Source: Tessaracoccus sp. MC1865 (GTDB lineage: Bacteria > Actinomycetota > Actinomycetes > Propionibacteriales > Propionibacteriaceae). Taken from it: DNA of 64,000 bases. Position numbers and translations under genes: made by a program. The stretch covers positions 1,612,001-1,676,000 of the forward strand of contig NZ_CP072596.1 of assembly GCF_017815535.1 (NCBI RefSeq). The letters are read 5' to 3'. Shown piece after piece: positions 49,048-52,078 of the stretch; position 1 is the first letter of the stretch; every line of letters begins with the position of its first letter. The notes under the pieces were generated by a model. That model ran no database searches, had not been told where the DNA came from, and saw only the letters and a program-made list of their open reading frames with translations.

Positions 49048-50586
49048 TCAGGCCTGGGCCGGCTCGCCCCAGAAGGTGTTGATGCTGGCACCCAGCTTGT
49101 TGAGGCGTTGGGGAAGGTCCTCGTAGCCGCGGTTGATGACGTAGACGTCCATCAGGGTGGTGGTGCCGCGGGCCGCGAGCGCCGCGAGCAGGAGGCACAC
49201 GGCGGGGCGCAGCGCCGGAGGCGATTCGATCCGACGGCCGCGCCACCGCGTCGGGCCGATGATCAGCAGGCGGTGGGCGTCCATCAACTGGATGTTCGCG
49301 CCGAACTCGGAGAGCTTCTTCAGGTGGATCGCCCGGTTGTCGTAGACCCAGTCATAGATGACGCTCTGGCCGGAGGCCGTGGCGCAGATGACCGCGAAGA
49401 ACGGCAGGTTGTCGATGTTGAGGCCGGGAAACGGCATGGGGTGGATCTTGTCCAGCGGCGCCGTCAGGTCTGACGGGATGACCGTGACGTCGACGAGGCG
49501 GGTTTGACCGTTGCGGCTGCGGTACTCGGCAGAGCGCTGGAGAACCTGGCCCATCTCGTCCAGAACGGCGAACTCCACCTCGAGGAACTCGATGGGGCAG
49601 CGGCGCACGGTGATCTCGGAGCGGGTCACGATGCCGGCGGTGAGCAGGCTCATCGCCTCGATGGGGTCTTCGGAGATGTCGTACTCGACGTCGGCCTCGA
49701 TGCGGTCCACGCCCGTGATGGTCAGCGTGGTGGTGCCGATGCCGTCGATGCGCACGCCGAGCATCTGCAGGTAGAAGCAGAGGTCCTGCACCATGTAATT
49801 GCCGGAGGCGTTGCGCAGCGTGGTGACGCCCGGGGTCCGGGCGGCCGCCATGATGGCGTTCTCCGTCACGGTGTCGCCGCGCTCGATCAGCGTGATGCTG
49901 CGGTGCTCCTCTGTGCTGTCGCCGATGGTGGCGTGGTAATGACCTTCCGTCGCCTCGACCGTGAGCCCCATCCGGCCGAGCGCCGACATGTGGGGGTGCA
50001 CGGTGCGCGCGCCGAGGTCGCAGCCTCCGGAGAAGGGGAGGCGGAACTCATCGAACTCGTGCATCAGCGGCCCGAGCAGCATGAGGATGGAGCGGGTGCG
50101 GCGGGCGGCGCGGGAATCGATGGTTTCAGGGGTGAGCTGGGTGGGGCGCTTGATCTCGAGGTCGTTGTCGCCGATCCAGGTCAGCTCGACGCCGATCGAG
50201 GTCAGTACCTCGGAGATCCTGTCCACCTCCTCGATGCGCGCGATGCCCCGCAGCACGGTGCGTCCGTGGTTGAGGAGGCTGGCGCAGAGGATGGCCATGG
50301 CTGCGTTCTTGGAGGTGCGCACGTCGATCTCGCCGGACAGCTTGTTGCCGCCCTCGATCTCGAAGTTGACCGTACCTTCGGTCACCGTCTGGATCAGTGG
50401 CATCTCCAGGGCTTCCGCGAGGCGTCCGATCATGCTCAGCGAGAGGTTCTGCTGCCCGTTCTCGATGCGGTGTACGGCGCTCTGGACGGTGCCCAGTTCG
50501 TCGGCCAGCTTCTGCTGGGACCAGCCCCGCGACGATCTGGCGTCGCGGATCATCCGGCCGATGGACTCACTAGTGGCTGCACTCAT
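49048..50586 (-). CDS. fusion of HTH (XRE/Cro-C1) domain and MurA-like enolpyruvyl transferase
   Basis: 512 residues. Residues 1-65 are a helix-turn-helix domain ([36 protein letters not shown]). From about 72 an EPSP-synthase-type domain follows, closest to UDP-GlcNAc enolpyruvyl transferase: Lys93 in TSKNAA and Cys189 in [15 protein letters not shown] correspond to MurA Lys22 and Cys115, the fosfomycin target. So catalysis looks possible. ATG 50586 is six bases after TAACCT, and a perfect 20-bp palindrome overlaps that -10, suggesting self-control. It diverges from lpdA. A second, ordinary murA may exist elsewhere. Confidence 0.85.
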
Positions 50587-50592
50587 CAAAAC

Positions 50593-50615
50593 AGGTTATC
50601 TCATCGATGAGATAA
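50593..50615. promoter_or_regulatory. 20-bp palindromic operator over the promoter of the HTH-MurA gene
   Basis: TTATCTCATC / GATGAGATAA is a perfect palindrome (50596-50615). On the minus strand its last TAA is the start of the -10 TAACCT (50598-50593), which sits six bases before the ATG. A protein bound here would block polymerase. The HTH domain of the adjacent product is the obvious candidate ligand. Confidence 0.75.
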
Positions 50616-50677
50616 TCGGGGTATCGCGAGGATGGTTTGGTGTCACGGGGAGATCAAAGAGCACTAGAGTGGCAGTC

Positions 50678-52078
<1,401 letters not shown>

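Follow-up and report, generated by a model that had tools for sequence, protein, structure and literature searches.

Does a MurA-family enzyme that carries an N-terminal helix-turn-helix (HTH) domain read a palindrome over its own promoter, and might it thereby act as its own repressor? The question is raised by a gene at 49048..50586 on the minus strand of the window, i.e. the whole stretch of 64,000 nucleotides from Tessaracoccus sp. MC1865 analyzed here. The gene encodes a protein of 512 amino acids (ATG at 50586-50584, with an in-frame TTG one codon upstream at 50589), in which an earlier note, made from the letters alone, had recognized an XRE-like HTH and a MurA-like enzyme that retains active-site Lys93 and Cys189. 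Profile searches agree: Pfam HTH_3 matches residues 13-63 (E 1.2e-11; 44.9 bits against a cut-off of 23) and EPSP_synthase matches residues 78-495 (PF00275, 164.5 bits), with the fold extending over the whole domain, while Lys93 and Cys189 align with K22 and C115 of the E. coli enzyme.

An AlphaFold2 model built from 39 aligned fusions (mean pLDDT 86.3) displays a MurA fold together with four HTH helices. From the N-terminus, the minus strand encodes the XRE/HTH_3 domain with these four helices (residues 9-63, 50398..50562), a linker of low confidence in the model (residues 64-74, 50365..50397) and the MurA-family enolpyruvyl transferase domain (residues 75-505, 49072..50364), which keeps K93, N94, C189, R194, D392, R418, R460 and R486. 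Within the HTH, the third helix and the following turn (residues 35-47, including Q35, S36, A37, R40, Q46 and N47; 50446..50484, minus strand) form a putative DNA-contact surface. The model falls below a pLDDT of 50 at residues 1-4, in the linker (65-70), in the loop of the catalytic Cys (188-193) and at 386-388. Its best solved structural matches are MurAs (1uae, TM-score by target 0.90); the PDB chains matched by sequence correspond, over their best stretches, to the enzyme only or the HTH only, and none to both.

Upstream of this gene lies a perfect 20-bp palindrome, TTATCTCATCGATGAGATAA (50596..50615, no strand), with the family core CTCA-N4-TGAG, which is predicted to be an operator on account of its conservation. 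One of its arms overlaps the -10 element TAACCT (50593..50598, minus strand), which is followed by six bases and then the ATG, in the manner of a leaderless promoter; the placement described in the earlier note is thus borne out by the sequence. It is the window's only perfect 20-bp palindrome, and a search of the rest of the window and of the whole 3,035,218-base genome, as that note had proposed, recovered no further copies with up to three mismatches. Since 0.19 (from composition) to 0.23 (from first-order Markov simulation) such palindromes are expected per window by chance, palindromicity by itself is weak evidence, and we rejected an argument for significance from it, although the expectation for the promoter gap alone is about 0.0002; it is conservation that carries the case. 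The same expectation would allow the palindrome to be a chance feature of one promoter, a reading to which we give next to no weight, as it is refuted by conservation in register across families: of 150 sites, 131 have TAnnnT in one and the same register on the right arm, and in 109 of the 150 the first in-frame start after the site lies 10-12 bases past the 18-base core. In two genera (g4 and g14) the site lies further upstream, ahead of a leader.

Across actinomycete families the palindrome travels with the fusion, as the earlier note had suggested checking in relatives. In a first set of 118 loci, of which 116 were scorable, at least 11 of 16 consensus positions are matched in 105 upstream regions, and across these regions CTCA never varies at its T and C, nor TGAG at its G and A. 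The site is furthermore kept or lost together with seven residues of the HTH, namely Q24, Q35, S36, A37, R40, Q46 and N47, which were chosen as contact positions on the first set. For all loci (178 scored, of which L019, L067 and L170 were too short, leaving 175 scorable), a site was called at a score of at least 11/16 within a 150-base upstream stretch, the cut-off of 11 having been fixed after the first set had been seen, and the reading residues were called intact at six or more of the seven. By this rule 150 loci have both the site and intact residues (five of them with six of the seven), 24 have neither and one, L157, is an apparent exception, so that 174 of 175 are concordant. Inspection of L157, where the residues are intact, places the site just beyond the 150-base stretch, bringing the loci with both to 151; in the 24 site-less loci the best score is 9/16 or lower and the residues are degenerate. 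Five loci (L024, L026, L030, L031 and L186), all from one genus, have their top score in another upstream stretch, and a CTCAGATCTGATATA site is present in each.

Raising the cut-off to 12 gives counts of 141, 0, 10 and 24 (both, site only, residues only, neither), and to 13 counts of 115, 0, 36 and 24, i.e. 10 and 36 of the 151 intact-residue loci then fall under it, the ten being weaker variants or L157. For sites scoring 11-12, up to nine of 200 shuffles of the region match that score. A hold-out of 60 loci, fetched after the residues had been chosen and enriched for genera known to be site-less, so that it tests concordance and not frequency, yielded 59 usable loci: 45 with both, 13 with neither and L157 as the one exception. 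Among a further 80 named loci, which partly share organisms with the other sets, 79 have both and one has neither. In a tree built from 116 MurA domains, both traits require five changes each, and these coincide; independent pairs on well-supported branches agree in four of four cases, too few for significance (sign test p 0.125). With about five changes on the tree, some lineages evidently manage without this control.

These natural losses are selective in what they remove. In the first set, 107 fusions are not classed as site-less (a number that includes two whose site could not be scored), and each of the seven residues is present in 105-107 of these; in the eleven site-less ones the share is 0-36%, whereas G10, R17, E42, G44 and L60 are retained in all eleven. 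When one rule is applied to all domains of the first set, the site-less fusions have lost seven of 17 near-invariant columns in the HTH as against one of 190 in the MurA domain. The linker measures 10-12 residues in 105 of the 107; among the eleven its length spans 8-23, with six still at 10-11. The -10 element stays behind: TAnnnT is found 6-8 bases ahead of the start in all 24 site-less loci (0.58 expected from shuffles), as it is in 134 of the remaining 151 (10.5 expected). As site-less genes thus keep their -10, the conservation of the palindrome is more than conservation of a promoter.

How many targets such a protein might have can be gauged from the number of sites per genome. The core AWCTCANNNNTGAGWT occurs in 48 of 57 genomes, in 46 of them at the fusion, and in 33 the copy at the fusion promoter is the sole one. 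Extra copies amount to 18 places in 15 genomes (0-3 per genome), as against two places in two genomes for a control in which the pattern was read backwards. The nine genomes without a match to AWCTCANNNNTGAGWT include some with variant sites (e.g. G005 and G225) and one loss (G105). Secondary targets are therefore possible, one of the 18 extra copies having been inspected: this second core, in G020, ends one resolvase-family ORF and adjoins another, and was set aside as a chance occurrence. A comparison of positions in 18 genomes from this search that have a canonical MurA-type match placed no listed AWCTCANNNNTGAGWT match at the canonical murA. Genomes of this kind can be expected to encode other XRE proteins, and the palindrome could in principle be bound by one of these or another regulator of the cell in place of the fusion; we regard this as very unlikely, for the site disappears where the fusion's own reading residues disappear, which the tree shows to have happened about five separate times, and the core is confined to the fusion promoter in those 33 genomes. 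As for the predicted DNA target of the fusion, sequence alone could hardly support it better.

We accordingly turn to what binding might do. It is highly probable, in our judgment, that the MurA-family enzyme represses its own gene, which would be the main or only target, and the earlier note's proposal of self-repression through the palindrome is strongly supported by the sequence, in which site and residues are concordant. The N-terminal XRE domain would presumably bind the CTCA-N4-TGAG palindrome as a dimer; the bound dimer would cover the -10 of the leaderless promoter and exclude RNA polymerase, and the concentration of the enzyme would thereby limit its own synthesis. That binding represses is suggested by the geometry, since a dimer on the site would cover the leaderless -10. 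The sign of regulation is read here from the sequence, and the fusion might in its stead bind the site as an activator or a DNA bender. We hold this to be very improbable, because the arm sits on the -10 in a fixed register, where a bound dimer would normally block polymerase, and because the 24 loci devoid of both site and reading head keep a leaderless-type -10, such that the promoter seems to depend on neither.

Self-repression as the preferred reading leaves the divergent neighbor to be considered. This gene, lpdA (dihydrolipoyl dehydrogenase, TIGR01350, 567.7 bits), lies at 50678..52078 on the plus strand, with its ATG at 50678 and a leaderless-looking -10 of its own (TAGAGT, seven bases ahead of the ATG, within 50665-50677). 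The earlier note had placed it 50 bases from the palindrome and supposed that it could be co-controlled; the distance from the palindrome to its ATG is in fact 62 bases. At 60 of 118 loci an lpdA-like gene lies divergently upstream, all 60 being in the family to which Tessaracoccus belongs, the search having covered a flank of at most about 2 kb. At loci with a site, the lpdA start lies anywhere from 34 to 1073 bases from the best-scoring site, which is itself mostly fixed relative to the fusion; lpdA is still present beside ten of the eleven site-less loci of the first set; and in Streptomyces coelicoflavus the site is kept and the divergent neighbor is an aconitase gene. On the strength of this variable distance, the persistence of lpdA beside site-less genes and the different neighbor elsewhere, we reject lpdA as a co-target and judge it to stand outside the circuit. 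The divergent neighbors identified are central-carbon genes, aconitase in S. coelicoflavus (L220) and lpdA in the own family of the window genome.

In that family the fusion is nearly universal: 145 of 147 genomes have a match, one of them (G131) at 3e-6 only, so that 144 have the fusion type, a few as fragments, and the three without a fusion-type match are assemblies that are 72-88% complete. In a sample of 295 genomes from the class every genome matches, since ordinary MurA also matches, and among the matches listed only certain families have ones of at least 58% identity that extend into the HTH. When 296 genomes from the phylum were sampled, 16 had a match at E<=1e-80, and all 16 belong to the same class. 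Among named records, the best 80 of at least 583 matches come from Tessaracoccus and Arachnia (the nearest), Streptomyces, Actinacidiphila, Nonomuraea, Mumia and Actinopolymorpha. Three matches are split into two adjacent pieces, presumably by a frameshift or assembly error (G404:C1:2095152-2096647, G208:C1:1261861-1263356 and G086:C246:6892-8336).

The fusion is frequently the only MurA-type gene of its genome. A PF00275 profile search of the window genome recovered two genes, the fusion and AroA, and no second murA, for which the earlier note had proposed a search; the sole candidate was dismissed as AroA (TIGR01356, 369.1 bits against a cut-off of 287.25). MurB is present (175.4 bits against 144.5). 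Among 80 fusion-bearing genomes, the fusion query matches one gene only at E<=1e-18 in 54 (for the own family 39 of 40 genomes, for family f2 11 of 13 and for f27 four of four). A second MurA-type gene, 29-32% identical, accompanies the fusion in 25, including all seven of the Streptomyces-type genomes sampled, and two of the 25 also have a third; one genome (G112) has a partial second copy. This copy is a fragment 97% identical to the C-terminal part of the fusion, about 3.8 kb from the full gene (G112:C17:357187-357534), and represents a partial duplication. Across 57 genomes of three families exactly two PF00275 matches are found in 53, the exceptions being G112 with its fragment, G033 with a third match, and G348 and G399 with a second MurA. 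The second match in the other genomes would be AroA, as it is absent from the matches to the fusion query at E<=1e-18. The third EPSP-synthase-family match of G033 (G033:C19:46093-47370) is likewise unmatched by the fusion query at 1e-18.

Whether the enzyme domain is still a MurA is a question in its own right. In E. coli numbering, K22, N23, R91, C115, R120, D305, R331, R371 and R397 are invariant in all 118 fusions, which hence retain throughout the catalytic set expected of MurA (K22, C115 or D, R120, D305, R331 and R397). A MurA would also be expected to have S162 and G164, in the UDP pyrophosphate loop, as well as D369, but 117, 118 and 118 of the 118 fusions, respectively, carry another residue there (G237, T239 and P457 in the window fusion), and the alignment has a one-residue insertion beside D369 in the fusions. 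One study ranks all three with the ten residues of E. coli MurA that are hardest to replace (PMC9842644). In 17 other actinomycete MurA-like proteins, selected by us from own-family and class matches, S162 and D369 are kept in all and G164 in 13, the other four having Thr at this position as well; 46 columns are fixed in at least 117 of the 118 fusions and absent from these 17 and from E. coli MurA. The fusion falls short of the TIGR01072 equivalog cut-off (307.6 versus 392.7) and passes that of the broader NF006873 (328.3 versus 297). When 19 fusions and 18 others are joined in a tree, the two groups part with full support, over a long intervening branch for which the program warns of long branches meeting. 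A third MurA-like type (L125, L127, L128 and L138), with Cys115 and an SHTGTEN loop, forms a group of its own in this tree. Position 115, the Cys of MurA that is hit by fosfomycin, is Cys in all 118 fusions and Asp in 13 of the 17 non-fusion actinomycete proteins (L123-L139).

The three replacements, the 46 signature columns and the low TIGR01072 score could mean that the domain is no longer a MurA, having become a UDP-sugar-binding sensor or an enolpyruvyl transferase for another acceptor. We consider this unlikely, given that the nine catalytic-site residues from K22 to R397 never vary, that Thr at 164 also occurs in four of the other actinomycete proteins, that 54 of 80 fusion-bearing genomes have no other match at E<=1e-18, and that the window genome has MurB, which needs the product of MurA. 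The domain would thus appear to be catalytically a MurA, and as such it calls into question what is indispensable in this enzyme, S162, G164 and D369 being gone from the sole MurA-type match of those 54 genomes.

A more far-reaching and tentative version of the self-repression model, which we would sooner doubt than adopt, is that the sole MurA of whole actinomycete lineages gauges itself. The earlier note had already conjectured that UDP-GlcNAc, PEP or fosfomycin-like ligands may be sensed through the catalytic domain. Whether the active site is empty, occupied by substrate or locked (by UDP-MurNAc together with PEP, or by an inhibitor) might set the hold of the HTH dimer on the -10, and so tune the supply of wall precursors without a separate sensor, by means of a MurA whose UDP pocket has been rebuilt without three residues that E. 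coli MurA hardly spares. An indirect look at whether enzyme state switches regulation is offered by the single MurA column of 190 that changes with loss of the operator: with almost no co-changing columns and a low-confidence linker, there is no sign of tight coupling between the HTH and MurA domains.

Several known systems invite comparison. From canonical MurA (TIGR01072, PRK09369/NF006873), with which it shares the fold and the catalytic Lys/Cys/Arg/Asp set, the fusion differs in its added N-terminal HTH, in the missing D369, in scoring below the TIGR01072 cut-off and in its UDP loop (ERGDTVTEN as against PSVGATEN in most others), and 19 fusions group apart from the 17 actinomycete MurA-like proteins and E. 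coli MurA. The Streptomyces tendae enolpyruvyl transferase NikO, which acts in nikkomycin synthesis and to our knowledge carries no HTH, resembles it in fold (4fqd, TM-score by target 0.85-0.86), with a lower sequence score (72.3 bits versus 180.5 for the best MurA). MurA2 of Streptomyces coelicolor (SCO5998) is very probably the Streptomyces ortholog, since the S. coelicoflavus fusion is divergent from aconitase and SCO5998 adjoins SCO5999 AcnA (PMC12161575). In the available sections, one source calls SCO5998 MurA2 and assigns it a predicted DmdR1 site (PMC12161575), another treats it as a putative UDP-GlcNAc transferase whose promoter depends on SigB (PMC8346170), and neither mentions an HTH or self-regulation there. 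Among the matches listed in the open-licence literature there was no description of an HTH-MurA fusion or of such a fusion as a regulator.

On the side of the DNA-binding domain, the HTH sequence resembles XRE-type regulators such as the restriction controllers C.BclI and C.AhdI and HipB (2b5a, 1y7y, 5k98 and others), beside which the fusion differs in that no toxin or restriction partner was noted next to its gene. XRE regulators commonly have palindromes and regulate themselves, according to the available part of PMC12565409, the main text of which has no word starting with TCTCA and a single 'mura', a surname in a reference. In uniting a metabolic enzyme and a repressor in one protein, roles that are both predicted from sequence in the present case, the fusion is akin to the trigger enzymes BirA and PutA, which repress the bio and put operons (PMC6978683, available section). 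It departs from these in that its target seems to be mainly its own gene, and its enzyme comes from the first step of wall synthesis. BirA and PutA also carry DNA-binding domains of other types. A family-wide lineage appears to use an enzyme that reads its own promoter, in a simple circuit for which the natural losses provide ready-made controls. Enzyme-repressors and XRE self-repressors are both already known, and the very probable self-repressor described here would add to them a case founded on MurA, which has a site dedicated to it and is the sole MurA-type gene in most of the family's sampled genomes.
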